A DNA stretch of 64,000 nucleotides, from the NCBI RefSeq assembly GCF_002261265.1, contig NZ_NEVK01000006.1:682001-746000 (forward strand), in the 5' to 3' direction. Under the pieces are notes generated by a model. That model was not told where the DNA came from. It did no database searches and saw only the letters and a list, made by a program, of their open reading frames with translations. Both the position numbers and the translations under genes were made by a program. This document shows, in pieces, positions 3,383 through 15,770 of the stretch (position 1 is the first letter of the stretch; the number at the start of each line of letters is the position of its first letter). This stretch comes from Bordetella genomosp. 7 (GTDB lineage Bacteria; Pseudomonadota; Gammaproteobacteria; Burkholderiales; Burkholderiaceae_B).

Positions 3383-3487
3383 TGCCCTTTACGATTGCGG
3401 ACTACCGCGGCGCGCCCATCACTTTTACAGTCACTGCATCCCGATGGCGCCGGACCGGCCATATCATTCATCCAACAAGGGAAAGCA

Positions 3488-4276
3488 ATGACCAAGAGCG
3501 GCGTACTGCAGATCCCGTCCATGCGAGACAAGTGCTCGGACGCGGAATGGAAGGCGCGCGTAGATCTCGCAGCCTGTTATCGGCTGGTAGAGCTGTACGG
3601 CATGGCCGACATGATGGCCAACCACATATCGCTGCGGGTGCCCGACGAGGACAACGCGTTCCTTATCAATGCCTACGGCATGATGTACGAAGAAATCACG
3701 GCGTCCAGCCTGATCAAGGTCGACCTCGACGGCAACATCCTGTCCCGGCCGGATTTCGGCGAGCTGGGCTACGGCATCAACAAGGCCGGCTATGTCATCC
3801 ACAGCGCCATCCACGGCGCCCGCCACGATGCCAACTGCGTAATCCATACGCACAGCTGGGCATCGATGGCGGTGTCGTCGCTGGCCTGCGGCCTGGTGCC
3901 CGCCACGCAAACCGCCATGCGCTTCCTGAAGATCGGCTACCACGACTATCAGGGCGTGGTGCTGGATACCAAAGAACAGGCGTCGCTGATCGCCGACCTG
4001 GGCCAGGGCGAAGCGCTCATCCTGCGCAACCACGGCGCCCTGACCGTGGGCCGCACAGTGGGTGAAGCATTCAACTGGATGCACCGGCTCGAGCTGGCAT
4101 GCCGCGCCCAGCTTGCGGCGCAGGCGACTCAGCAACCGCTGCAGCAGGTGCCGCCCGACGTGCTGGAAGAAACCTGGAACAACTATCAGCCGGGCACGCG
4201 GCGACCGTACGGCGTAATGGAGTGGCCCGCCCTGCTGCGCAAGCTCGACCGTATCGACAGCAGCTACCGCGATTGA
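3488..4276 (+). CDS. Class II aldolase/adducin family protein
   Basis: This 262-residue protein has the class II aldolase fold, which uses a metal ion to stabilise an enediolate in retro-aldol cleavage or decarboxylation. The metal-binding histidines are visible in CVIHTHSWAS and in LILRNHGAL; NINAYGMMYEEIT-like residues near 60-75 match the substrate loop. The ATG at 3488 is preceded by AAGGGA. It is the first gene of an operon with a Bug receptor and a D-2-hydroxyacid dehydrogenase, so it probably handles a hydroxy- or keto-acid taken up by the cell. The exact reaction is not determined; family members include fuculose-phosphate aldolase and HMF-type decarboxylases. Confidence 0.85.
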   Translation: MTKSGVLQIPSMRDKCSDAEWKARVDLAACYRLVELYGMADMMANHISLRVPDEDNAFLINAYGMMYEEITASSLIKVDLDGNILSRPDFGELGYGINKAGYVIHSAIHGARHDANCVIHTHSWASMAVSSLACGLVPATQTAMRFLKIGYHDYQGVVLDTKEQASLIADLGQGEALILRNHGALTVGRTVGEAFNWMHRLELACRAQLAAQATQQPLQQVPPDVLEETWNNYQPGTRRPYGVMEWPALLRKLDRIDSSYRD

Positions 4277-4388
4277 CGCCGCGGGCGCTGCAACGGCCCG
4301 CATTACCGCAACAGCACGTGACGCCGGCGCCGGCAGCGCCGCGCGTGCCCGTGCGCAACATAAGCATAACCAACGGAGAGACACCATC

Positions 4389-5348
4389 ATGAACCCGACC
4401 TGCAGTTCCCTATTGGCGTGCGGCATCCTGGGGCTGGCCGCGGCGCTGCCCGCACAGGCCGCCTACCCCGAGCGGCCCGTGAAAGTCGTCGTAGCGTTTA
4501 CGGCGGGCGGCACGACCGACAAGCTCACGCGCAGTGTCAGCGACAAGCTTGGCCAACAGCTGTCGGAATCGTTCATCGTCGAAAACCGGCCCGGCGCCGG
4601 CGGCAACATCGGCACCGAATATGTCGTGCGGTCCGATCCCGACGGCTACACGCTGATCGTCGACTCGGTGGGCCCTATCGCGGTGAACCCGTCGCTGGGC
4701 AAGCTCAGCTACGACCCGCTGACCGATCTGGTGCCCATTGTGCAGATCGCCACGGTGCCCAACGTGCTCGTCGTGCCGCCCACTCTGCCCGTCAAGGATT
4801 TTGCCGGCTTTCTGGAATATGCCAAGTCCAAGAAAAGCCTCAACTATGGCTCGACCGGGGTAGGCACGTCGTCGCATTTGTCCAGCTTCCTGCTGATGCA
4901 AGAGGTGGGCGTGCCGGACGCCACGCACATTCCTTATAAAGGCGCCGACGCGATCAACGACTTGATGGCGGGCCGGCTGGACTTCATGTTCGCCACGGCG
5001 CCGTCCGTCATGGGGCAGATCCGTTCCGGCAAGTTGCGCGCGCTGGCCGTCAGCACGAGCGCGCGCTCGCCTTCGCTGCCAGAACTGCCCACCGTGGCGG
5101 AATCCGGCTTCGCCGGCTTTGACGCCGGGTCGTGGTTCGGCTTTTTCGCCCCGAAGAATACCCCGGCCGAAGTGATCGCCACCATCAACAAAGGCGTGAA
5201 CACGGCGCTGCCCGACCTGCACGAACAGCTGCTGGCCGAAGGCGCCAACCCGGTCGGCGGCTCGCCCGAGGACTTCGGCCGCTTCACCCGCGCGGAATAC
5301 GAAAAGTGGAAGAAAATCCTGCAACAGGCGGACGTGAAGGCGCAATGA
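4389..5348 (+). CDS. Bug-type tripartite tricarboxylate transporter receptor
   Basis: This 319-residue periplasmic binding protein has a signal peptide of about 24 residues ending in PAQA. The mature part starts YPERPVKVVVAFTAGG, the hallmark of Bug receptors, and contains VENRPGAGGNIGTEYV and THIPYKGADAINDLMAG. Bug proteins bind small carboxylates or amides. No TctA/TctB membrane genes are in the window, so it is an orphan receptor that must use remote membrane components or act as a sensor. A strong GGAGAG ribosome-binding site precedes the start. Its stop overlaps the next gene by four bases, so ligand capture and the dehydrogenase are co-expressed. Confidence 0.93.
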   Translation: MNPTCSSLLACGILGLAAALPAQAAYPERPVKVVVAFTAGGTTDKLTRSVSDKLGQQLSESFIVENRPGAGGNIGTEYVVRSDPDGYTLIVDSVGPIAVNPSLGKLSYDPLTDLVPIVQIATVPNVLVVPPTLPVKDFAGFLEYAKSKKSLNYGSTGVGTSSHLSSFLLMQEVGVPDATHIPYKGADAINDLMAGRLDFMFATAPSVMGQIRSGKLRALAVSTSARSPSLPELPTVAESGFAGFDAGSWFGFFAPKNTPAEVIATINKGVNTALPDLHEQLLAEGANPVGGSPEDFGRFTRAEYEKWKKILQQADVKAQ

Positions 5349-6307
5349 CGGCTCCCGTCCGCATTCTTTGCTCCGCACAGGAAGCGCCCCGGCTGGCCGA
5401 GCCGCTGCGAACGCTGGCCCGCGACATCACGCTGTGCCATCCGGGCGACTCCCAGGCCGAGCTGGCCGATGTCGCCTTTGTTTCGCGTGACATCACGGGG
5501 CGTTCCACCAAGTTCGAGATCCATCCCGACACCGAGCGCTTTTATTCGGCCCTGCGGGCGGCCCGCCGTCTGCAGTGGCTGCATGTGCATTCCATCGGCC
5601 TGGATCGAGACATCTACCAGGAAGTGCGCGCACGCGGCGCGCGCGTCACCGCATCGCATGGCGCCTCGGACGCGGTGGTGGCGCAGGCGGCAGTGGCCGG
5701 GTTGCTGGCGCTGGCGCGCCATCTGCCCCACCTGTTGCGCGCCCAGCAGCGCCGCCAATGGGCGCCCTTGTTCGACGAGTGGATGCCCCGGGATCTCGAC
5801 GGGCAGCACGCCGTCATTGTGGGCTGGGGCGGCATCGGCCAACGCATCGGCCAGCTGCTGCAGGCCCTGGGCCTGCGCATTTCGGTGGCGCGCCACAGCG
5901 GCCAGCCCGCCGCGCCGGGCATCCGCACGGTGCCGTACAGCGGCCTGGCAGAGTTGCTGCCCGACGCCGCGTGGCTGGTGCTGGCCTGCCCGCTCAGCGA
6001 CGCGACCCGCAACCTGGTAGATGCGCGCACGCTGGCCGCGCTGCCGCCGCATGCCCAGGTGGTCAACGTCGCGCGCGGCCACGTCATCGACGAAGCCGCG
6101 TTGATTCAGGCGCTGCGGGCGCAAGCCCTGCGCGGCGCATTTCTGGACGTGTTCCAGCACGAGCCCCTGCCGGCCGACTCGCCGCTGTGGGACATGGAAA
6201 ATGTGATCGTGTCCCCCCACAGCGCCGGCTTTTCGGACGGCAATGCCGAGCGGGTGCGCCGCATTTTCCTGGAGAATCTGCGGCGCTGGCTGGACGGCAG
6301 CCTGTAA
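5345..6307 (+). CDS. D-isomer-specific 2-hydroxyacid dehydrogenase
   Basis: This 320-residue NAD(P)-dependent enzyme interconverts a 2-hydroxy acid and a 2-keto acid. The Rossmann motif GWGGIGQRIG is near residue 160. The catalytic triad is intact: Arg in NVARGHVIDE, Glu in FQHEPLP and His in SPHSAG, with the normal spacing of 29 and 19 residues. The start ATG overlaps the Bug receptor stop (ATGA). Context suggests it oxidises or reduces the acid imported or sensed by that receptor and produced or used by the aldolase. Closest in style to glyoxylate/hydroxypyruvate reductases; the substrate is unproven. Confidence 0.9.
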   Translation: MTAPVRILCSAQEAPRLAEPLRTLARDITLCHPGDSQAELADVAFVSRDITGRSTKFEIHPDTERFYSALRAARRLQWLHVHSIGLDRDIYQEVRARGARVTASHGASDAVVAQAAVAGLLALARHLPHLLRAQQRRQWAPLFDEWMPRDLDGQHAVIVGWGGIGQRIGQLLQALGLRISVARHSGQPAAPGIRTVPYSGLAELLPDAAWLVLACPLSDATRNLVDARTLAALPPHAQVVNVARGHVIDEAALIQALRAQALRGAFLDVFQHEPLPADSPLWDMENVIVSPHSAGFSDGNAERVRRIFLENLRRWLDGSL

Positions 6308-6310
6308 CCG

Positions 6311-6339
6311 CGGGCGTGCGGCCGGGCCCCGCACGCCCG
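6311..6339. terminator. GC-rich hairpin after the aldolase operon
   Basis: Perfect 11-base arms (6311-6321 and 6329-6339) enclose a 7-base loop, four bases after the dehydrogenase stop and before a convergent gene. There is no T-tract on either side, so this may be a bidirectional RNA 3'-end or Rho-pausing hairpin rather than a classical intrinsic terminator. Confidence 0.45.
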
Positions 6340-6360
6340 GCCATGCGCCGACGCGGCCGC

Positions 6361-6612
6361 TTACGCGTATAGCGGCTCCCCGTCCTTGCCCACCCCCTTC
6401 ACCCGGCGCAGGATGCGATACGCCGCGCGCTCGGCCTCGTCCTGCTCGAAGTACGGCGACGACTGGGGCGGCTCCCAGACCCGTTCGGCTAGCGGCACCC
6501 CGTCGCCTTCCGGACGCGTTGCCACCCGTATGGCAAAGCCGCCTTCATTTGCGACCACCACGTCGCAGAACACCCGATAGCCATTCAGCGAGACACCTGT
6601 AGCGATGTTCAT
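6361..6612 (-). CDS. Small conserved-looking hypothetical protein
   Basis: An 83-residue protein beginning MNIATGVSLNGYRVFCDVVV. I do not recognise the family. It is soluble, without a signal peptide or membrane segment, and mixes beta-strand-like N-terminal residues with an acidic central part and a basic tail (ILRRVKGVGKDG). The ATG at 6612 follows an AGGAA ribosome-binding site, which favours it over an in-frame start 35 codons upstream. It is convergent with the aldolase operon and divergent from the AhpD-like gene. No function is proposed. Confidence 0.6.
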   Translation of the reverse strand: MNIATGVSLNGYRVFCDVVVANEGGFAIRVATRPEGDGVPLAERVWEPPQSSPYFEQDEAERAAYRILRRVKGVGKDGEPLYA

Positions 6613-6802
6613 ATGCGTTGTTCCTCTAAATGCTGAACCAGCCCAATTCATGCGTGGCGCCTGTATCCCGGTTCTATGCGCTTCAAGCGGGAACGCCACG
6701 TAACGGGATGTCAGCAAATGGTGTGCCCGACTGCCTGCCCGGTCGCGCGCCGGTATTTTTTACGAATTGTTTCGATTGTGCGTGGCGCCTCCTCCCAAAT
6801 AC

Positions 6803-6836
6803 GGATATTATTTATCCTTAAGGACAATTTATATCC
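6803..6836. promoter_or_regulatory. Two tandem GGATA-N5-TATCC operators before the AhpD-like gene
   Basis: Site 1 (6803-6817) is a perfect GGATA-N5-TATCC; site 2 (6822-6836) is GGACA-N5-TATCC. They are 19 bases apart and end 16 bases before the gene start. TATTAT (6806-6811), a good -10, lies inside site 1, so binding would block RNA polymerase. The same sequence precedes the neighbouring Rrf2 gene. Confidence 0.65.
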
Positions 6837-6852
6837 GCAATAGGAGAAAGCC

Positions 6853-7332
6853 ATGAGCGCGCGCCTGAACTACGTCGAGCAGTCCCCTGAGTTTTTCAAG
6901 AAATTCGTGCAGTTCAGCAATGCCCTGGGCGGGGGCAGCATCGAAGAAAAGACGCATGACCTGGTGCAGATCCGCGCCTCGCAGATCAATGGCTGCGCGT
7001 TCTGCCTGGATATGCATATCAAGCAGGCCAAGATCCATGGCGAGAGCGAATTGCGCCTGCACCACGTGGCCATCTGGCACGAGTCCCCCCTGTATTCGCC
7101 GCGCGAGCGCGCCGCGCTGGCCTGGGCCGAGGCGCTCACCCGCCTGCCCGAAGGCGGCGTGCCCGACGATATTTACGAACTCGCGCGCAGCGAGTTTTCG
7201 GAAAAAGAAATCACCGACCTGACGTACCTGGTGATGGCCATCAACGCCTGGAACCGCATCAACGTAGCGTTCCGCAATGAGCCGGGCTCGGCGGACAAGG
7301 CATTCGGCCTGGACAAGGCAGGCCTGGGCTGA
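6853..7332 (+). CDS. Carboxymuconolactone decarboxylase / AhpD-like peroxidase-fold protein
   Basis: This 159-residue protein has the AhpD/CMD core. The redox motif is Cys48-x-x-Cys51 with His55 in INGCAFCLDMH, preceded by HDLVQIRASQ, which matches alkylhydroperoxidase D-like proteins that reduce peroxides through a thiol pair. YSPRERAALAWAEALT is the second conserved block. A GGAG ribosome-binding site precedes the start. Its promoter carries two copies of a palindrome also found before the convergent Rrf2 gene, so it is probably the main target of that redox-type regulator. The role is most likely peroxide or electrophile defence; strict decarboxylase activity is unlikely given the CxxC. 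Confidence 0.88.
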   Translation: MSARLNYVEQSPEFFKKFVQFSNALGGGSIEEKTHDLVQIRASQINGCAFCLDMHIKQAKIHGESELRLHHVAIWHESPLYSPRERAALAWAEALTRLPEGGVPDDIYELARSEFSEKEITDLTYLVMAINAWNRINVAFRNEPGSADKAFGLDKAGLG

Positions 7333-7359
7333 CGGCAGGCGGTGTGTCGATTGCGCCGG

Positions 7360-7848
7360 TTACCCGGCGCGCCGCAGCACCCATTCTTGCGTGCGCTGCA
7401 GCAGTGCAGGAGACACCTCGGCCGTCAGCGTGTCCAGTACGTCGGAAATCCGCGTCTCGCGCAGCGAATTGCGCCACGCTTCGTCGGCGCGCCACATCAG
7501 GCGGGCAATGATGCAGGGCGCCTCAGCCTTGTACCCCTCGGGCCAGCACGGGTTGTTGGTCCGGATTTCCTTGCATGCAAAGGTACTGGCGGGGCCCTCG
7601 ACGGCCTCGACAATATCCAGGAAGCTGATGTCGGCCGGCGCGCGGGCCAGCCGGTAGCCGCCCGACGGGCCCAGCGTCGTTTCCACCAGCCCCGCCTGCG
7701 ACACGGCCTGCAGCGCCTTGGACAGGTATTCTTTGGGCACGCCGTGCAATTCGGCCAGGGCCTTGGTAGACAGATACCGGCCAGGCGGCAGGCCCGCCAA
7801 GGCGACACAGCAATGCAACGCCCATTCGACCTGGCTTTTCAGATTCAT
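7360..7848 (-). CDS. Rrf2-family transcriptional regulator
   Basis: This 162-residue protein has an N-terminal winged helix with the Rrf2 signature (STKALAELHGVPKEYLSKALQ, then GPSGGYRLARAP). Cysteines 92, 101 and 112 are spaced C-x8-C-x10-C, wider than the iron-sulfur ligand spacing of IscR or NsrR; Cys13 and Cys14 are extra. This suggests either an Fe-S cluster with unusual geometry or direct thiol sensing. The gene is convergent with the AhpD-like gene, 27 bases apart, and its own upstream region carries the same GGATA-N5-TATCC site, consistent with autoregulation. The ribosome-binding site is weak. Confidence 0.9.
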   Translation of the reverse strand: MNLKSQVEWALHCCVALAGLPPGRYLSTKALAELHGVPKEYLSKALQAVSQAGLVETTLGPSGGYRLARAPADISFLDIVEAVEGPASTFACKEIRTNNPCWPEGYKAEAPCIIARLMWRADEAWRNSLRETRISDVLDTLTAEVSPALLQRTQEWVLRRAG

Positions 7849-7900
7849 CGTTTACCCGTTGTCAGAAAGCCGGCGCGCCCGGCGCCGCGCGATGGATTAA

Positions 7901-7915
7901 GGATACTAGATATCC
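7901..7915. promoter_or_regulatory. GGATA-N5-TATCC operator before the Rrf2 gene
   Basis: A perfect copy of the palindrome found twice before the AhpD-like gene lies 53 bases upstream of the rrf2 start, overlapping a weak minus-strand -10-like TAGTAT. It indicates autoregulation. It is also 70 bases from the DUF3348 gene on the other side and could affect that operon. Confidence 0.6.
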
Positions 7916-7984
7916 TCGAATGGCGCCCCTCGCGTGTAGCGGGGCGCGACAGCCTGTAAACTGCCGGATTTTTGACTCTGGCAC

Positions 7985-8716
7985 ATGGTGCAAGTACCCC
8001 GGCGCGCAGGTGTCAGCGGCCCTACGCTGGTACGCCTGCTTGCTCGCCTGATAGACGCCGACATTCCCGCGTCGCGGCAACCGCTGGCCGAACGGCTCAG
8101 CCAGTGGCTGAGCTGGACCGATGCCATCGCGCTGTCGGCAGTGCTCGACGGCGCGGCGCCCGCTCCGGCAGCCCCTCCGCGCGCGTTCGACGCAGCAGAG
8201 GCTCGCGAGGTGCAGCGCGTCAGGGAGTCTATCGCCCGGGCTATCGACGACGACACGCCGTTTACCGCGCCGCCGATACGTGTGTCACGAGCCGCGGCCA
8301 CGCCCGCGCCGGCGCCGGCGGCCGCGGAACCGGCCTACATCATCTACCGCCAGCGTTACCAGGCCATACAGCAGACCATGGAAACCAGCATTGCCAAGTT
8401 GCGGGCGCGCCTGCGGTCGCTGTTGGCCACGCAAACACCTGCCATGGCGCGCCTGGCGGTGGTCGACGCCATCATGGAGCGCTCGCTGAGCGCGCACGAA
8501 CGGCGCCTGCTCGCCACCATTCCGGGCATGCTCGAAGGCCATTTCAACCGGATGCGCCAAGCGGCCGAAGACGCGGCAGACGCCGCCGGGGCCGCCTCAG
8601 CGCCGCACTCCTGGGTGGCCGCGTTCCGCGCCGACATGCGCAGCGTGCTGCGCGCCGAACTGGACATCCGCCTACAACCCATCGAGGGCCTGCTTGCCGC
8701 CCTGCGCGCCCATTGA
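7985..8716 (+). CDS. DUF3348-type protein, first gene of motor-like operon
   Basis: This 243-residue soluble protein resembles the DUF3348 family of Burkholderiales. The first 50 residues (GVSGPTLVRLLARLID...LSQWLSWTDAIALSAVLDG) form a helical domain, followed by an Ala/Pro-rich linker (about 57-115), then a mostly helical C-terminal half rich in Arg and Glu (YIIYRQRYQAIQQTMETSI...). It has no signal peptide or membrane segment, so it should be cytoplasmic. The ribosome-binding site is poor. It is followed after 10 bases by the DUF802 membrane protein and two more genes that overlap, so it is probably a cytoplasmic partner of that complex. Function unknown. Confidence 0.75.
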   Translation: MVQVPRRAGVSGPTLVRLLARLIDADIPASRQPLAERLSQWLSWTDAIALSAVLDGAAPAPAAPPRAFDAAEAREVQRVRESIARAIDDDTPFTAPPIRVSRAAATPAPAPAAAEPAYIIYRQRYQAIQQTMETSIAKLRARLRSLLATQTPAMARLAVVDAIMERSLSAHERRLLATIPGMLEGHFNRMRQAAEDAADAAGAASAPHSWVAAFRADMRSVLRAELDIRLQPIEGLLAALRAH

Positions 8717-8726
8717 CCCGGACACC

Positions 8727-11054
8727 ATGACACGAAATCTCGTTGCTCTCGTTATTTTCCTGGCGGGCCTGGCCGTTGTGGGCTGGGTCGGCGCCGGCTA
8801 TGTCGGCTCGAACACCCTGGCGCTGGCCGTCACGGGCCTGATCGGCATCGTCTACCTGGCCGGCGCCCTCGAGCTGCGGCGCTACCAACTGGGCACCGCC
8901 GGGCTGGCGCGCGCCACGGCATCACTGAGCACACCGCCAGCCCGTCTGGATGACTGGCTGGCGCAGGTGCCGGCCGGGCTGCGCCATATTGCGCAACTGC
9001 GCGTCGAGGGCCAGCGCACGGCCTTTCCCGGCCCCGCGCTGGCGCCCTACCTTGCCGGCATGCTGGTGCTGCTGGGCATGCTGGGCACCTTCCTGGGCAT
9101 GGTGGCCACCTTGCGCGGCACGGGCGCCGCGCTGGAAGGCGCGGTCGACCTGCACGCGATCCGCTCGTCGCTGGCCGCTCCGGTGCACGGCCTGGGCTTC
9201 GCTTTCGGCACCTCGGTGGCGGGCGTGGCATCCTCGGCCGCGCTGGGTCTGCTGGCCGCATTGACGCGGCGCGAGCGCCTGCGCGCCGTACAGCAACTGG
9301 ACGCCGCCAGCGCCACCACGTTGCGCGAATACTCGCAAAGCCACCAGCGCGAACAGACTTTGCAATTGCTGCAGAAACAGGCCGACGCCATGCCTTTGGT
9401 GGTCGACCGCCTGCAGGAAATGATGGCGACGCTGGAACGGCAGAATCTGGCGCTGCACGAACGGCTGGCGGCCAGCCAGGACGCGTTTCACGGCAAGGCG
9501 GACGCCGCCTATACGCGCCTGGCCGCCGCCATGGAGCAGGCGCTCAAGCAAAGCGTGGCCGACAACGCCGAGGCTGCCGGCGCCGCCATCCGGCCGGCGG
9601 TGGAAGCGACACTGGCCGGCCTGGCCCGCGAGACTTCCGCCTGGCAGGACACCCTGGCGCACGCGGTGCGCCAGCAACTGGACGACGTGACCGGCCGCTT
9701 CGAAGCCACCACCGGGAAGGTGGCTGAACTCTGGACCGATGCGCTGGCGCAGCATCGGCACGCCGGCGCGAGCCTGGCGCAGGATCTGGGCGTCACGCTG
9801 CAGCGTTTCACCGACACCTTCGAGCAGCGCTCGGCCGGCCTGCTGGATAACGTAGGCGTGCGCCTGGATACGACGGCCGCCGCCCTGCAGGCCGCCTGGG
9901 ACGGCGCCTTGGCCCGGCAATCCGCCACCGGCAGCGAACTGGCCGAACAGCACCAGCGCGCACTGGCGGCCGCCACCGCCAGCCTGCAGGAACAATCGGC
10001 GGCGCTGGTGCAGAGCCTGAATCAATCGCATGCCGGCCTGCAGGCCGAACTGGCCGCCCGCGACGAGCAGCGCCTGGCCGCCTGGCAAGCCTCGCTGGGC
10101 GAGGTGGCCGGCACGCTTCGGCTGCACTGGGAGCAGGCCGCCACCCAGGCGGCCGCGCAGCAACAGCAGGCATGTGATGCGCTGGCGCAAACCGCGCGGG
10201 AACTGTCTACACAAACCCACACGCAGGCGCGCGAGACCATCGCCGAAGTGGCGCGGCTGGTGGATGCGGCCGCGCAGGCGCCGCACGCCGCAGCCCAGGC
10301 CATCGCCGGCTGGAACAGCACGCTGGACGACATGTCGGCCGCCCTGCGCGAACAATGGGACTACGCCAGCACACTGGCTGCCGAGCGCCAGCAGCAGATC
10401 TGCGACACACTCGAACGCACCGCGCAAGACCTTGCCGCCCAGACGCAGGCGCATGCGCAGCAGACGATCGCCCAGGTCACGCAGCTGGTGCAGACGGCCG
10501 CCGAAGCGCCCAGGGCCGCCGCCGATGTCATCGCCGAGCTGCGCCAGAAACTGACCGACAGCATGGCGCGCGACAACGCCATGCTCGAAGAACGCAGCCG
10601 CCTGATGCAAACGCTGGGCACGCTGCTGGACGCCGTCAACCACGCATCGACCCAGCAGCGCACGGCAGTCGACGAGCTCATCACCACATCGGCGGGGCTG
10701 CTCGAAAGGGTGGGCAGCCAGTTCACCGCCAAGGTCGAGGCCGAGACCGATAAACTCGGCGGCATCGCCGCGCAGGTGACCGGCAGCGCCGCGGAAGTCG
10801 CCAGCCTGGGCGAAGCGTTCGGCGCAGCGGTGCAGGCCTTCGGCGAATCCGGCGACAAGTTGGCCGAACATCTGCAGCGCATTGAGGCCGCGCTCGACAA
10901 ATCCATGGCGCGCAGCGATGAGCAGCTGGCGTACTACGTCGCCCAGGCCCGCGAAGTGGTTGATCTCAGCGTACTGTCGCAGAAGCAGATCCTGCAGGAC
11001 CTGCAGCAACTGGCCAGCCGGCAGCAACCGTCCGAAAGCGGCGAAACGGCATGA
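8727..11054 (+). CDS. DUF802 membrane protein with MotA/ExbB-like head and coiled-coil tail
   Basis: This 775-residue protein has four predicted membrane segments at about 5-27, 31-50, 104-127 and 153-180, the last two separated by a short loop as in MotA, TolQ and ZorA. A cytoplasmic alpha-helical tail of nearly 600 residues follows, rich in Ala, Gln and Glu. Residues 464-539 and 540-615 are two copies of a 76-residue repeat, each with one Cys (483 and 559), which I take to be the DUF802 unit. The next gene encodes a MotB/OmpA-like partner and overlaps it by four bases. I chose ATG 8727 (MTRNLVALVI) because translation from an earlier in-frame ATG would add 11 non-conserved residues and overlap DUF3348. 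The stator role is inferred from architecture. Confidence 0.8.
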   Translation: MTRNLVALVIFLAGLAVVGWVGAGYVGSNTLALAVTGLIGIVYLAGALELRRYQLGTAGLARATASLSTPPARLDDWLAQVPAGLRHIAQLRVEGQRTAFPGPALAPYLAGMLVLLGMLGTFLGMVATLRGTGAALEGAVDLHAIRSSLAAPVHGLGFAFGTSVAGVASSAALGLLAALTRRERLRAVQQLDAASATTLREYSQSHQREQTLQLLQKQADAMPLVVDRLQEMMATLERQNLALHERLAASQDAFHGKADAAYTRLAAAMEQALKQSVADNAEAAGAAIRPAVEATLAGLARETSAWQDTLAHAVRQQLDDVTGRFEATTGKVAELWTDALAQHRHAGASLAQDLGVTLQRFTDTFEQRSAGLLDNVGVRLDTTAAALQAAWDGALARQSATGSELAEQHQRALAAATASLQEQSAALVQSLNQSHAGLQAELAARDEQRLAAWQASLGEVAGTLRLHWEQAATQAAAQQQQACDALAQTARELSTQTHTQARETIAEVARLVDAAAQAPHAAAQAIAGWNSTLDDMSAALREQWDYASTLAAERQQQICDTLERTAQDLAAQTQAHAQQTIAQVTQLVQTAAEAPRAAADVIAELRQKLTDSMARDNAMLEERSRLMQTLGTLLDAVNHASTQQRTAVDELITTSAGLLERVGSQFTAKVEAETDKLGGIAAQVTGSAAEVASLGEAFGAAVQAFGESGDKLAEHLQRIEAALDKSMARSDEQLAYYVAQAREVVDLSVLSQKQILQDLQQLASRQQPSESGETA

Positions 11055-11698
11055 GCGACGACATCGAAGCCGGCGTCGAGCCCACCGCGCCCGCCTGGGC
11101 GGTCTTCGGCGACCTGATGTCCGTGTTGATGGGCGCCTTCGTCCTGGTGCTGGTGGGCGTCGTGGGCGTGCAGGCAGAGCTGTCTGCCCGCCTGGAGGAT
11201 GAAGTCAGGCAACGCCAGCAGGAAACCCAGCGGCGCATGGAACTCGAACAGGCGCTGGCCGGCCCCCTGGCCGCGGGCAGCGTCACGCTGGTCGACGGCC
11301 GCATCGGCATCAGCGGCAGCGTGCTGTTTGCGCTGAACTCCGACCAGTTGCAGCCCGAAGGCCTGGAAGTACTCAAGAGCCTGGTGGGCCCGTTGTCGGA
11401 ATACCTGCGGTCACGCGACGAAATCCTGATGGTCAGCGGCTTTACGGACAACCAGCCGGTGCACGGCAACAACCGCCGCTTCCACGACAACTGGGAACTG
11501 TCGGCCCAGCGCGCGCTTACCGTCACCCGCGCCCTGATCCAACAGGGCATCGCGCAGGACGCCATATTCGCCGCCGCATTCGGCGAACAACAGCCGGTGG
11601 CGTCGAATGACGACCCGGCCGGGCGCGCCCACAATCGCCGCGTGGAAATCGCGCCGATTGCCCGCGTGCCGAACCACAAGGCGCAGGGCGGTGACTGA
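11051..11698 (+). CDS. MotB/ZorB-like OmpA-domain protein
   Basis: This 215-residue protein has a single N-terminal membrane helix at about 22-42 and an OmpA/MotB peptidoglycan-binding domain at about 90-205 (GFTDNQPV, ELSAQRALTVTRALI, HNRRVEI). The helix entry WAVFGDLMSVLMGAF carries Asp21 where MotB, ExbD and ZorB carry the proton-binding Asp, so it should be part of an ion channel with the DUF802 protein. A short coiled coil (44-70) links helix and domain. It overlaps the DUF802 stop by four bases and the next start by eight, so all are co-translated. The cell wall anchor and ion path are family knowledge; a motor function here is inference. Confidence 0.85.
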   Translation: MSDDIEAGVEPTAPAWAVFGDLMSVLMGAFVLVLVGVVGVQAELSARLEDEVRQRQQETQRRMELEQALAGPLAAGSVTLVDGRIGISGSVLFALNSDQLQPEGLEVLKSLVGPLSEYLRSRDEILMVSGFTDNQPVHGNNRRFHDNWELSAQRALTVTRALIQQGIAQDAIFAAAFGEQQPVASNDDPAGRAHNRRVEIAPIARVPNHKAQGGD

Positions 11699-12371
11699 CC
11701 CGCGCGACGCCGCTATTCAGGCCACGCTGGCTGCCTGGCGCGACCAAGGCGTGCATCGCACGCATCCCGCGCGCTTTCGCCTGATCGAGGCGCTGGCCGG
11801 CCGCGCGCAACGCGTCGACGGCCAGGCGCGCCAGGTACTGCAGGCGCGGCTTGACGTCCTGGTGGGCGAGTTCCAGCAGGCGCTCGGCGCGAATACGCCG
11901 CCCGAGGCGCAAGCCGATGACGCCGCTGTGGCGGCCGTGTCAACAGCGGCCCAGGGCGCAGAACCTGCCCCCCCGGGCGCGCCGCAGAGTCTTTGCGAGC
12001 TCCTGGGCTACATGCAGGACCACCCCGCCGCCGCGCACGACGGCGAGGCCGCGCAAGACCGGGCGCGGTTGCGCCAGCGCTACCCCGAGCTGGACTTGCT
12101 GGATTATTTCCAGGCCACCTGGGCCCGCCTGAGCACCGACCGGCAGCTGCTCCAATCCGAAGAACAGGTTCACGAAAACGCAGGCCCGTTGAATTCCAAC
12201 CACCTGGTGCACCGCGCGCTGTCGCTCATGCGCGCGCAATCGCCGGGCTATCTGCATCAGTTCCTGGCATACCTGGATGGCCTGGGCTGGGTGGACCAGC
12301 TCGTCAACAATGGCGGGCTGGCGGCCAGGCCCGCCGCGCGGGGCAAAAAGTCCGGCCGCGCCGCCCGCTAG
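11691..12371 (+). CDS. DUF2894-type protein, last gene of motor-like operon
   Basis: I start this 226-residue protein at GTG 11691, eight bases inside the MotB-like gene, since the reading begins cleanly there (TDPRDAAIQATLAAWRDQG) and no in-frame ATG lies between the gene junction and conserved sequence; a far upstream ATG would bury 84 bases in the previous gene. It resembles DUF2894: a helical N-terminal part, a Pro/Ala linker at about 70-100, and a C-terminal block with LLDYFQATWARLSTDRQL and SNHLVHRALSLMR. The tail is strongly basic (GKKSGRAAR). It is soluble and probably cytoplasmic. Function unknown; context makes it an accessory factor of the stator-like pair. Confidence 0.75.
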   Translation: MTDPRDAAIQATLAAWRDQGVHRTHPARFRLIEALAGRAQRVDGQARQVLQARLDVLVGEFQQALGANTPPEAQADDAAVAAVSTAAQGAEPAPPGAPQSLCELLGYMQDHPAAAHDGEAAQDRARLRQRYPELDLLDYFQATWARLSTDRQLLQSEEQVHENAGPLNSNHLVHRALSLMRAQSPGYLHQFLAYLDGLGWVDQLVNNGGLAARPAARGKKSGRAAR

Positions 12372-12380
12372 CGGGCGGCG
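12359..12380. terminator. Perfect 22-base GC palindrome between convergent stops
   Basis: An uninterrupted palindrome centred on CTAG contains the DUF2894 stop codon and ends at the base before the convergent beta-propeller gene's stop. In RNA it would fold into a nine-pair stem in both directions. It lacks a T-tract, so termination is plausible but unproven. Confidence 0.4.
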
Positions 12381-13013
12381 TCACGAACCGGGCCGCCGCA
12401 CCACCCTGAGCATGCCGCTTTCGGCCCCGCCGCAGAACAGGCGGTCGGCCCCGTCGGACTCCAAGCCCGACACACACATTCCTTGCGGCATCGCGGCACT
12501 GGCCAGCACCTTGCCGGTGCGCGGATCGACGCGGCGCAACTCACTCGCGTCATCTTCCCAGGTGGCATGCCACAACTCGCCGCCCACCCACGTCACACCG
12601 GTCACATACCGGTTCGACTCCAGCGTGTTGAGCACCTTGCCCGTTCCCGGGTCCACCTGGTAGATCTTGCGGTGCCTGAAATGCGCCACCCACAGCATGC
12701 CTTCGGCCCACGCCAGGCCGGAATGGCCGTCGCCGTCGGGCGTGGGCAGCGTGGCCAGCACTTTGCCCGTCTGCGGGTCGATCTTGCGTATCTCGTTGCC
12801 CTCGATCTGGTAGAACGCCTTGCCGTCGAACGCCGTGCCCGCGGGGCATGCCGCTGCAACGGCGCGTCCCGGCGCGCCCGTGTCCGGATCAATGGCCTGC
12901 AAGCGGTCACCGGTGGCCAGCCAGACATGCCGGCCATCGTAAGTGACTCCGTTGATCTCCTTCACCTGCGGGAAAGGGCCATGTTCGTGAATGACTTCGG
13001 CTGTCTTGCTCAT
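12381..13013 (-). CDS. Beta-propeller (YVTN/Vgb-like) repeat protein
   Basis: This 210-residue protein is built from repeating blade units of about 45 residues with recurring phrases such as IDPDTGAP, IDPQTGKVLATL, VDPGTGKVLNTL and VDPRTGKVLAS. Each ends a strand set typical of NHL/YVTN-like propellers, with about five blades. There is no signal peptide. The ATG at 13013 follows AGGTG. Such propellers bind small molecules or act as lyases/lactonases; no catalytic site can be named. It follows the winged-helix regulator gene by 48 bases on the same strand, and the pair probably forms an operon. Confidence 0.7.
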   Translation of the reverse strand: MSKTAEVIHEHGPFPQVKEINGVTYDGRHVWLATGDRLQAIDPDTGAPGRAVAAACPAGTAFDGKAFYQIEGNEIRKIDPQTGKVLATLPTPDGDGHSGLAWAEGMLWVAHFRHRKIYQVDPGTGKVLNTLESNRYVTGVTWVGGELWHATWEDDASELRRVDPRTGKVLASAAMPQGMCVSGLESDGADRLFCGGAESGMLRVVRRPGS

Positions 13014-13061
13014 GCGGCACCTGGTTGGTAGATTGAAAAAAATACTCACCACGCCTGCATG

Positions 13062-14279
13062 CTAGTCGCCGTACCACGGCCCGGGAAGTAACAAGCTTGT
13101 CGCGAATTCCGGGATGGCCACGGCCATCCAGCGCCGCGCTCGCCCCTGCCCCACCGGGCGCACGCGGCCCAAGCGCACCAACGCCTCCAGCGAACGCTGT
13201 ACCGTACGCTGGCTGGCTGCCAGCGCCAAGGCCAATGCCGAACTGGACCACGACTCACCATCGGACAGCAGGGCCAGTACCGGCGCGTGCGGCGTGTCGT
13301 CAGGCCAGGCCAGCACCGCCACCGTCGCGCCGCGGGGCGACAGCACATAGCCCCGCGCCGTGGCCTGTATGCCGGCCAGCCCGCGCAACGCGCTGCGCAG
13401 GCGGCCGATTTCTACGCGCAGCCGCGCACGGTGCGACTCGTCGCCGTGCCGCATGCGGAACACGCCGGCGATCAGGGCATCGCGCGGTGCGTCGGCGGGC
13501 CATGCGTCGGCCAGCATGCGCGCCAGCATGAACAAAACGGGGCGGCGCGCCAGGCCCACCACAGATCCACCCTGGCGCACCGCATGCCGGCACGCGTCGA
13601 CCACCAGCGTTTCCGAAGCCAGCAAGGTCTCGATCTCGTCGAGCCCTGCCGCGCGACGCGCGCCAGACAGGCTCAGCCGGGCCATGGGCGCGTCCAGCGT
13701 GCGTTCGGCATTGCCGACCTCTGCCAGCAACGCGCCGATGCGCGCCTGCTGCGCGATGTGGCGCGCCTGCGCCAGGGCAGCCCGCGCGGCGTGCGCCTGC
13801 ATGCGTCGCATCGCAATGCCCGCCGTCACCAGCGCATGCACGGCCCGCAGCGCCGCCGGCAGCGACGGGCCAGGCGGCCCGCCCAATGCGCTTTCGGCCT
13901 GTTCGAGCCGACCCAGCAGCAGCAGCCGCCTTGCATCGATATAGCGCGCGTGAACGACGTTGATGGCGTCGCCTTCGCGCTGCAGCACAGCGCGCGCCGC
14001 ATCCAGCGATCGCGCGGGCCATGCCAGGTCACGCATGGCCAGGGCGATCTCGGCTTCGGCCACCATGCACCGGGCGCGCGCCAGCGCGGCTTGCGGCCCG
14101 AAGCCACGGGCGGCGTCGCGCATCAGCCGGCGGGCGCGTTCCAGGTCGCCCAACTGCGCCATGGCGCAGCCGCGCACCGCCAGCGCCGGCGCATCGTCGC
14201 GCAGGGCCACGCGGTTCAGCGCCCCCAGCGCATCACCCGCGGCAAGCGCCCGGGCGGCGGCGGCAATCGAAGCGTCCAT
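13062..14279 (-). CDS. Large regulator with TPR-like helices and two winged-helix segments
   Basis: This 405-residue protein has about 240 residues of helical hairpin repeats (Ala/Arg-rich, TPR-like) followed by two DNA-binding regions. The first (MRHGDESHRARLRVEIGRLR...GYVLSP) resembles the OmpR/SARP winged helix; the second (SSSALALALAASQRTVQRSL...LGRVRPVG) is a second winged helix. There is no receiver or kinase domain. I use ATG 14279; a GTG nine bases upstream is equally possible. The neighbouring beta-propeller gene probably belongs to the same transcript. Target and signal are unknown. Confidence 0.65.
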   Translation of the reverse strand: MDASIAAAARALAAGDALGALNRVALRDDAPALAVRGCAMAQLGDLERARRLMRDAARGFGPQAALARARCMVAEAEIALAMRDLAWPARSLDAARAVLQREGDAINVVHARYIDARRLLLLGRLEQAESALGGPPGPSLPAALRAVHALVTAGIAMRRMQAHAARAALAQARHIAQQARIGALLAEVGNAERTLDAPMARLSLSGARRAAGLDEIETLLASETLVVDACRHAVRQGGSVVGLARRPVLFMLARMLADAWPADAPRDALIAGVFRMRHGDESHRARLRVEIGRLRSALRGLAGIQATARGYVLSPRGATVAVLAWPDDTPHAPVLALLSDGESWSSSALALALAASQRTVQRSLEALVRLGRVRPVGQGRARRWMAVAIPEFATSLLLPGPWYGD

Positions 14280-14412
14280 GGAAATCACGCCAGATCTGTC
14301 ACTCTTGGCTGACGGAGCTGCGATCCTAACCTATCGCTCAGGGCACGGCCACGCTGGCGGAGCGGTTCGATGGCCCTGTGGCACGCGCCTTTCGCCACCT
14401 GACCGACCCGAT

Positions 14413-15024
14413 TCACGCCGCCGCGGGTACATGCACCTCCGGGGCCTCGGCCATCCGGCGGCCCAGCCGCCGGGCGGCCGACAGCACCGCATCGGGCTCA
14501 TCGTGGGACTGCAGCAACAATTCCGAAGCCATGACGCGAGCCCCGCAGTAATCGAATATCCCGTGGTCGATCTGCGTGCGCATGGCGCTGGCGTAGCCAT
14601 GCCGCGCATAGGTGCGGGCGTCCGCGCCCCCCACGCCCGCCAGGTAGACGGGCAGATGCCCGAGCTTCTTCTCCGGCCGGCCGCCCGTATCGTCATACGC
14701 CCAGCCGTTGGAAAACACGCGGTCTATCCACCCTTTCATCAGGGCCGGCATCGACCACCAGTACACCGGAAACACCAGCGCCAGCGCATCGGCGCGGTCG
14801 ATGCGCGCCTGTTCGGCGGCCACATCGGCCGGCGCGGCCTGGGTGCGGCGGTGCGTCGCGTGGTCGGCCGCATTGAAACGCGGATCGAAACCCTCTGCGT
14901 ACAGGTCGGCCACTTCATATGAATGGCCGGGGCTGGCCTGGACAATGCCCGATCCAATGCAGTGCGCGGCGGCATGGCTCAAGGAAGCGGGGTCGGGGTG
15001 CGAAACAACGATAAGGGTGTGCAT
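14413..15024 (-). CDS. Flavodoxin-fold NAD(P)H:quinone oxidoreductase
   Basis: This 203-residue protein belongs to the NQO1/MdaB/KefF family: MHTLIVVSHPDPASLSHA carries the FMN/FAD phosphate-binding loop, ALVFPVYWWSMPALMKGWIDRVF is the classic isoalloxazine motif, and YLAGVGG is the third flavin contact. It performs two-electron reduction of quinones, avoiding semiquinone radicals. The start follows a GAGG ribosome-binding site. It diverges from a tetR gene, and the 131 bases between them hold two copies of a palindrome, so it is very probably induced by quinones or electrophiles through that repressor. Confidence 0.9.
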   Translation of the reverse strand: MHTLIVVSHPDPASLSHAAAHCIGSGIVQASPGHSYEVADLYAEGFDPRFNAADHATHRRTQAAPADVAAEQARIDRADALALVFPVYWWSMPALMKGWIDRVFSNGWAYDDTGGRPEKKLGHLPVYLAGVGGADARTYARHGYASAMRTQIDHGIFDYCGARVMASELLLQSHDEPDAVLSAARRLGRRMAEAPEVHVPAAA

Positions 15025-15088
15025 GGATAAACCTCGGAGAAATGTCGCAGACCAGTCACCGCCTGATATAGTCGGTTGACCTACGCCA

Positions 15089-15141
15089 GGTAACTTACAG
15101 CCAGTAATCTACCACTGGTAACTTACGATTAGTAAGTTACC
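15089..15141. promoter_or_regulatory. Double TetR-type operator
   Basis: A perfect site (15117-15141) has arms GGTAACTTAC and GTAAGTTACC with a five-base spacer. A second site (15089-15113) has the same left arm and spacer length with right arm GTAATCTACC, two mismatches. The centres are 28 bases apart, between the divergent quinone reductase and tetR genes; the perfect site ends 14 bases before the tetR start. Confidence 0.8.
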
Positions 15142-15155
15142 GATAGTACATAGCC

Positions 15156-15770
15156 ATGTCAACCAGCGCCGCTCCCCTTTCTGCCACCCCCGCGCCGCGC
15201 CGGCGCCTGTCCAGGTCCGAGCGCCACCGACAACTGCTCGACACCGCCTGGCGCCTGGTGCGCGAAGAAGGCACCGAGGCGCTGACTCTTGGCCGGCTGG
15301 CAGACGAGGCGGGTGTGACCAAGCCCGTGACGTATGACCATTTCGGCAGCCGGGCAGGCCTGCTGGCGGCGCTGTATCGCGAGTACGACGCCAACCAGAC
15401 CTCGCTGATGTCGGCCGCGTTGCGCGCGAGCGAAAACACCCTCGCCAGTCGCGCAGCGGTTATTGCGTCGTCCTATGTACAGTGCGTACTGAGCCAGGGC
15501 ACGGAAATACCGGGTGTCAGCGCGGCTCTGGCCGGCTCGCCCGAACTGGAAAAAATCAAGCGCGATTACGAAGCCGCCTTCATGCAGACCTGCCGCGAAG
15601 CGCTGGCGCCTTATGCCCCTTCGGGCAGAATCGAGGCGGCCGGCCTGTGGGCGCTGCTGGGGGCGGCCGAGTCGCTGTCCTATGCCGCGGCCACGGGCGC
15701 GATCACTGCGGCGCAGGCACAGCAGGAACTCTACGAAACCATCGCCGCGATGGTGGCTCGCAACGCCTGA
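15156..15770 (+). CDS. TetR/AcrR family repressor
   Basis: This 204-residue protein has an N-terminal helix-turn-helix (RHRQLLDTAWRLVREEG, then LTLGRLADEAGVTKPVTYDHFGSRAGLLAAL) and a helical ligand domain of about 140 residues. TetR repressors dimerise on palindromes of this size. Two such sites lie immediately upstream, so it should repress itself and the divergent quinone reductase until a ligand, perhaps a quinone or other electrophile, is bound. A basic Pro/Arg-rich stretch precedes the helix-turn-helix. A GC hairpin follows its stop. Confidence 0.92.
   Translation: MSTSAAPLSATPAPRRRLSRSERHRQLLDTAWRLVREEGTEALTLGRLADEAGVTKPVTYDHFGSRAGLLAALYREYDANQTSLMSAALRASENTLASRAAVIASSYVQCVLSQGTEIPGVSAALAGSPELEKIKRDYEAAFMQTCREALAPYAPSGRIEAAGLWALLGAAESLSYAAATGAITAAQAQQELYETIAAMVARNA

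Follow-up and report, generated by a model that had tools for sequence, protein, structure and literature searches.

Four open reading frames are located in tandem on the plus strand at positions 7985-12371 of the window, the whole stretch of 64,000 nucleotides from Bordetella genomosp. 7 that was analysed. The first two genes are 10 bases apart, the second and third overlap by 4 bases and the third and fourth by 8, in agreement with the gene arrangement described in the initial annotation, and the GTG start of the fourth gene is one option among several in-frame starts. The genes and the features within them are as follows.

7985-8716, plus strand: DUF3348 protein, 243 amino acids (Pfam 280.5 bits; PADLOC PDLC00658, 1.6e-87)
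8727-11054, plus strand: ZorA (type III), 775 amino acids, membrane channel subunit with a long cytoplasmic tail (DUF802 repeats) (PADLOC ZorA3, PDLC00650, 1200.7 bits; Pfam DUF802, 86.2; alignment to ZorA of PDB 8vvn)
9027-9296, plus strand: ZorA residues 101-190, helices of the channel, which carry T121, T162 and S163 as Ser/Thr residues (80% mean pairwise identity in 41 rows; 33/90 columns invariant)
9414-10508, plus strand: ZorA residues 230-594, variable-length rod with 11-residue-type (hendecad-like) periodicity (154-782 residues in 41 rows)
10509-11006, plus strand: ZorA residues 595-760, conserved tail tip, putative and probable docking site for partners (residues 721-760, 76% mean pairwise identity; 10/40 columns invariant)
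11051-11698, plus strand: ZorB (type III), 215 amino acids, one membrane helix and an OmpA-type peptidoglycan-binding domain (PADLOC ZorB3, PDLC00651, 7.1e-111; Pfam OmpA, 65.8 bits; profile alignment to 8vvn_B and 8qyd_F)
11111-11113, plus strand: codon (GAC) of ZorB Asp21, predicted ion-binding residue, within WAVFGDLMSVLM (D in 41/41 and 81/81 rows)
11324-11638, plus strand: OmpA-like peptidoglycan-binding domain, ZorB residues 92-196 (Pfam; T132, D133, R154, N195, R196 and R197 in 41/41)
11691-12371, plus strand: DUF2894 protein, 226 amino acids from the GTG start (Pfam 172.6 bits; PADLOC PDLC00652, 1.1e-62)

The same four genes were found in the same order on one strand in all 40 relatives chosen by a DUF3348 match and in 76 of the 80 named relatives chosen by ZorB, and thus the arrangement is not due to chance. 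The other four named relatives were without DUF3348 only, and their available DNA begins 0.8-2.7 kb before ZorB. For the alignments, a set of 41 rows was composed of the window and 40 loci, taken from 40 of 58 other positive genomes, and a set of 81 rows of the window and the 80 named loci, some genomes being common to both sets.

All four proteins were matched by the PADLOC models of Zorya type III, with E-values from 1.1e-62 down to 0, and the elements by which this type is recognized were all present: a type III ZorA, a ZorB with an Asp in its helix and an OmpA domain, and flanking DUF3348 and DUF2894 genes. These matches identify the operon as a Zorya type III anti-phage system, a type already described, and nothing in the window copy removes it from the type. 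In contrast, the models for ZorA of Zorya I and II remained far below the cut-off on the window ZorA, with 17.5 of 190 bits for NF033914 (ZorA_1) and 28.9 of 100 bits for NF033915 (ZorA_2). The name Zorya type III dates from 2021 and was based on 6,401 gene pairs (given in print as 'zorBC') located between DUF3348 and DUF2894 genes (Payne et al. 2021, PMC8565338), with the same four families in one operon as here and in PADLOC-DB, and the definition is repeated in a paper of 2025 (PMC11890865). The anti-phage assay in print is that of a relative, the copy of Stenotrophomonas nitritireducens, which in Escherichia coli BL21-AI gave fewer plaques of at least one tested phage (PMC8565338). The initial annotation, which held the operon to be uncharacterised and a role in phage defence to be unsupported, was thus wrong on both points. 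The names of the two outer genes differ between sources: DUF3348 is ZorF and DUF2894 is ZorG in the papers of 2021 and 2025 (PMC8565338, PMC11890865), while DUF3348 is ZorG3 and DUF2894 is ZorF3 in PADLOC-DB 2.0.0.

By hydropathy scan, membrane segments were detected at residues 1-28, 29-51 and 104-131 of ZorA and at residues 14-48 of ZorB. Of the four ZorA helices proposed in the initial annotation, three were thus recovered by hydropathy, and the fourth (residues about 155-180), which was below the hydropathy threshold, by alignment to ZorA of PDB 8vvn (E 0.00035). The description of ZorB as a protein with one helix, Asp21 and an OmpA domain was borne out. Asp21 was invariant in both sets of rows (the window is present in both, and the sets overlap); a wide loss of this residue, which had been named beforehand as evidence against a motor, was not observed in any of the 41 or 81 rows, and eight ZorB of the named set read FADLM in place of FGDLM with the Asp kept. 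In ZorA, T121, T162 and S163 were invariant in 41/41 rows and aligned with the stretches GTF and TSV in ZorA of PDB 8vvn. The ZorB profile aligned over residues 7-209, nearly its full length, to 8vvn_B (6.4e-9) and over residues 8-200 to 8qyd_F (5.2e-8), which is listed as 'membrane protein' and which we take to be a Zorya ZorB.

The ZorA/ZorB motor core, the peptidoglycan domain and the long tail are common to Zorya I and II (PDB 8vvn and 8vvi), which were solved as 5:2 complexes and whose motors depend on the Asp of ZorB, on binding to peptidoglycan and on the tail of ZorA (PMC11890865). Homology to these solved complexes makes it probable that a cation-driven motor of five ZorA and two ZorB is assembled in the inner membrane. 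The motor reading of the initial annotation was right in outline, in that a MotAB/ZorAB-like motor with a long tail and two cytoplasmic partners fits the evidence, with a 5:2 stoichiometry predicted by homology.

The tail of ZorA covers residues about 190-775, close to the 600 residues noted before. Among the 41 rows, the length of ZorA ranged from 555 to 1193 amino acids, and most conspicuously the stretch delimited by the positions equivalent to residues 230 and 595 ranged from 154 to 782 residues (median 365). This fivefold variation between channel and tip differs from the well-conserved component size of the Zorya families described in PMC11890865. From the equivalent of residue 595 to the end, 174 to 444 residues were counted (median 180), and the length of the distal part is therefore not strictly constant across the rows. 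The hydrophobic periodicity, calculated from residue 201 up to the C-terminus with the tip included, peaked at 3.62-3.67 residues in 41/41 rows and at 3.45-3.55 in none, with a flat spectrum after shuffling; the pattern is close to an 11-residue, three-turn repeat and not to a heptad. The same periodicity was found in ZorA of a Zorya I-like locus (184.9 of 190 bits, with a MotB-like open reading frame following it), which peaked at 3.62. Four further ZorA-like tails were measured, of which three peaked at 3.63-3.65 and one, a short tail, at 3.53. Three ZorA-like proteins with this periodicity, L168 (G117:C1:247984-249540), L169 (G116:C8:38155-40023) and L167 (G032:C1:419396-421267), scored 29.7-44.5 bits with ZorA_1 (cut-off 190) and are perhaps another long-tailed MotA-like group. 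As read from the type III sequences, the tail may form a five-stranded rod of adjustable length with a fixed tip, and the conserved tip is likely a docking site for the DUF3348 and DUF2894 partners.

With respect to these two partners, AlphaFold predicted DUF3348 as a soluble helical bundle (pLDDT 83.6, pTM 0.79) and DUF2894 as helices of uncertain packing (pLDDT 78.5, pTM 0.42; a weak model). Neither protein matched a helicase or nuclease family above the cut-off in Pfam or NCBIfam, and neither had a clear counterpart among solved structures. The invariant polar residues of DUF3348 are Q129, R140, R144, D161, E225 and R229, in addition to apolar ones; in DUF2894 the alignment contains a nearly invariant stretch N163-A-G-P-L-N168, and the invariant residues G165, P166, P185, Y187, F191 and L198 are all uncharged. 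This set of residues does not point to a metal nuclease, and a nuclease of unknown fold is possible. The difference from Zorya I and II lies in the effectors: ZorC plus ZorD or ZorE are published for these types, whereas none was seen beside the window operon (no PADLOC match in 10 neighbours), its partners being helical DUF proteins without nuclease signature.

A survey of co-occurrence, proposed in the initial annotation for all four genes, was carried out in part: DUF3348 and DUF2894 were found in an identical set of 51 among the 151 genomes of the family. They were on one contig in 48 of the 51; the remaining three (G044, G048 and G107) had DUF3348 no more than about 2 kb from the end of a contig. 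One of the 51 carries an in-frame TAG inside its DUF2894 match (G096:C56:89888-90373), and this copy may therefore be broken. Among 14 control genomes, DUF3348 was found in none, and DUF2894 was over the cut-off in Corynebacterium glutamicum; because of this match without DUF3348, DUF2894 may have other uses.

The operon was present in all nine genomes of the genus, that of the window included, and in 41 of the 43 genomes of a sister genus, or 40/40 when only good genomes (completeness of 90% or more, contamination of 5% or less) are counted. The type I restriction domain HSDR_N was found in 18/43 of the same sister-genus genomes (18/40 of the good ones). At the level of the family, 51/151 genomes and 15/42 genera were positive, with no match in the other 27 sampled genera, and at least one genus (g27) was mixed, with one positive and one negative genome (G059 and G027). 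Beyond the family, matches were found in 15/250 genomes of the order (14 over the cut-off), 8/276 of the class and 17/299 of the phylum (16 over the cut-off). These counts indicate that the operon is universal in the two fully examined genera and missing from most sampled genera. Phage and viral collections gave no match to the operon.

In the window, an Rrf2 regulator is located on one side of the operon and a propeller-like protein on the other, with metabolic genes around. The 10 scanned neighbours are metabolic and regulatory genes, two of them without any family, and none matched PADLOC; the check for a defence island that had been suggested initially was thus negative for the window. Among seven of the eight genus mates (one with a fragmented assembly was left out), the upstream block (a gene labelled 'aldolase' by reading and a TctC-type gene) was kept in 6/7, the downstream propeller gene in 5/7 and at least one flank in 7/7. 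Of the 10 named Achromobacter loci, 9 contained the propeller gene or its neighbour within the 10 kb flank. The propeller-like protein and an unannotated protein of 408 amino acids (no Pfam match), at window positions 12381-14288, are also found close to the operon in several genus mates and Achromobacter loci. The proteins encoded at 3485-15770 of the window diverge from those of the genus mates at least as much as the mates diverge from each other (ratio 1.0-2.4), and the genome of the window, 4.13 Mb, is smaller than those of 7/8 mates.

A tree of the ZorA core plus ZorB (55 rows) grouped Achromobacter (9/9), Rhodanobacteraceae with Lysobacteraceae (10/10), Cupriavidus (11/12), and the genus of the window with two Bordetella records (8 rows). 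Some placements argue against simple vertical descent: the ten-row group of Rhodanobacteraceae and Lysobacteraceae was nested among Burkholderiaceae, two other Bordetella were placed elsewhere, Pigmentiphaga joined a stray Cupriavidus with modest support, and Paraburkholderia and Caballeronia were intermixed. The site of the operon is partly conserved in the genus, and its inheritance is largely that of a core gene, the tree mostly following taxonomy.

The reading that we favour, with moderate confidence, is that Zorya type III is an envelope-triggered motor with a non-nuclease output. The OmpA domain of ZorB would grip the peptidoglycan, and upon disturbance of the envelope, for instance by injection of phage DNA, the channel would open at Asp21 and ZorA would turn. 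The five-stranded helical rod would transmit the motion to the conserved cytoplasmic tip, which may hold or release the DUF3348 and DUF2894 proteins, presumably acting as helical adaptors or effectors. Since neither partner carries a recognisable nuclease, defence would be exerted by something other than DNA cutting of the ZorD or ZorE type. In the discussion of one paper, Zorya is said to localise at sites of phage DNA injection, probably sensing the disturbance of the envelope (PMC13190303). Evidence against a defence motor includes a negative CRISPRi screen with one phage (PMC12584637), the metabolic neighbourhood, and the core-gene-like inheritance, which is unusual for defence.

In the main rival, the operon encodes a core envelope motor of Burkholderia- and Xanthomonas-type bacteria with a housekeeping job, such as transmission of peptidoglycan tension or envelope stress, and the protection against phage arises as a by-product of over-expressing it in E. 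coli. We regard this as possible but doubtful. Its presence in 9/9 genomes of the genus and in 40/40 good sister-genus genomes, against 18/40 for HSDR_N, agrees with such a job, as do the conserved flank in every genus mate compared, the largely taxonomic tree and the empty phage and viral collections. Upon CRISPRi knock-down of predicted systems including Zorya III in Burkholderia cenocepacia, none was relevant to phage Bcep176, although the authors list reasons for which an active system could escape detection (PMC12584637). On the other hand, one relative protects directly against phage (PMC8565338), and infection alters transcripts from the leading one or two genes in Zorya I and III (PMC12584637); moreover, because it is absent from 27/42 genera of the family and one genus is mixed, the operon is dispensable on a larger scale. 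Weighing the published assay and the localisation at injection sites (PMC13190303) against the CRISPRi result (PMC12584637), we favour the envelope-triggered non-nuclease motor, with the housekeeping job as its main rival.

It is improbable that defence consists of an ion leak, in which the channel opens in response to an infected envelope, depolarisation and death of the cell follow, and the rod and partners only gate the pore. A proton-channel abortive model has been discussed, with ZorF and ZorG proposed as regulators of ZorAB (PMC8565338), and such a mode of action agrees with the lack of an evident nuclease in the partners, but it leaves unexplained why a tip so distant from the membrane is conserved whatever the length of the rod, and Zorya II needs the effector ZorE in addition to its motor (PMC11890865).

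MotAB consists of a channel subunit and an OmpA-anchored subunit with an essential Asp. The window proteins share this plan, and the OmpA part of ZorB scored best against MotB structures, higher than against those of Zorya. A flagellar or other ordinary MotAB-type stator is nevertheless highly improbable and for practical purposes refuted: none of the flagellar-stator models among the best 25 of 41 NCBIfam matches attained its cut-off, the best flagellar model being MotD (PRK09038) with 98.4 of 283 bits; no flagellar genes were found among the 10 scanned neighbours; and the ZorA3 and ZorB3 models fit far better. The long rod further distinguishes the window proteins from MotAB.

As far as our searches of the literature show, the anatomy of type III with fixed tip and variable rod, the partners without nuclease signature and the core-gene pattern are novel. 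Type III seems to be a Zorya without nuclease, in which the rod differs fivefold in length while both ends are fixed, and this combination makes possible a sharp test of whether Zorya motors turn a shaft that presents its tip to the effectors. The core-gene behaviour is also a warning against treating every PADLOC match as an acquired defence system. We tentatively raise the possibility that in Burkholderia- and Xanthomonas-type bacteria the operon encodes a core envelope motor, passed on mostly by vertical descent, in which disturbance of the peptidoglycan or membrane would be conveyed along a rod of freely variable length to an invariant tip and from there to two helical proteins, giving a response other than DNA cutting. 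If true, these bacteria would carry either a constitutive, first-line and non-nucleolytic defence against phage or a housekeeping mechanosensor with a defence label based on over-expression.
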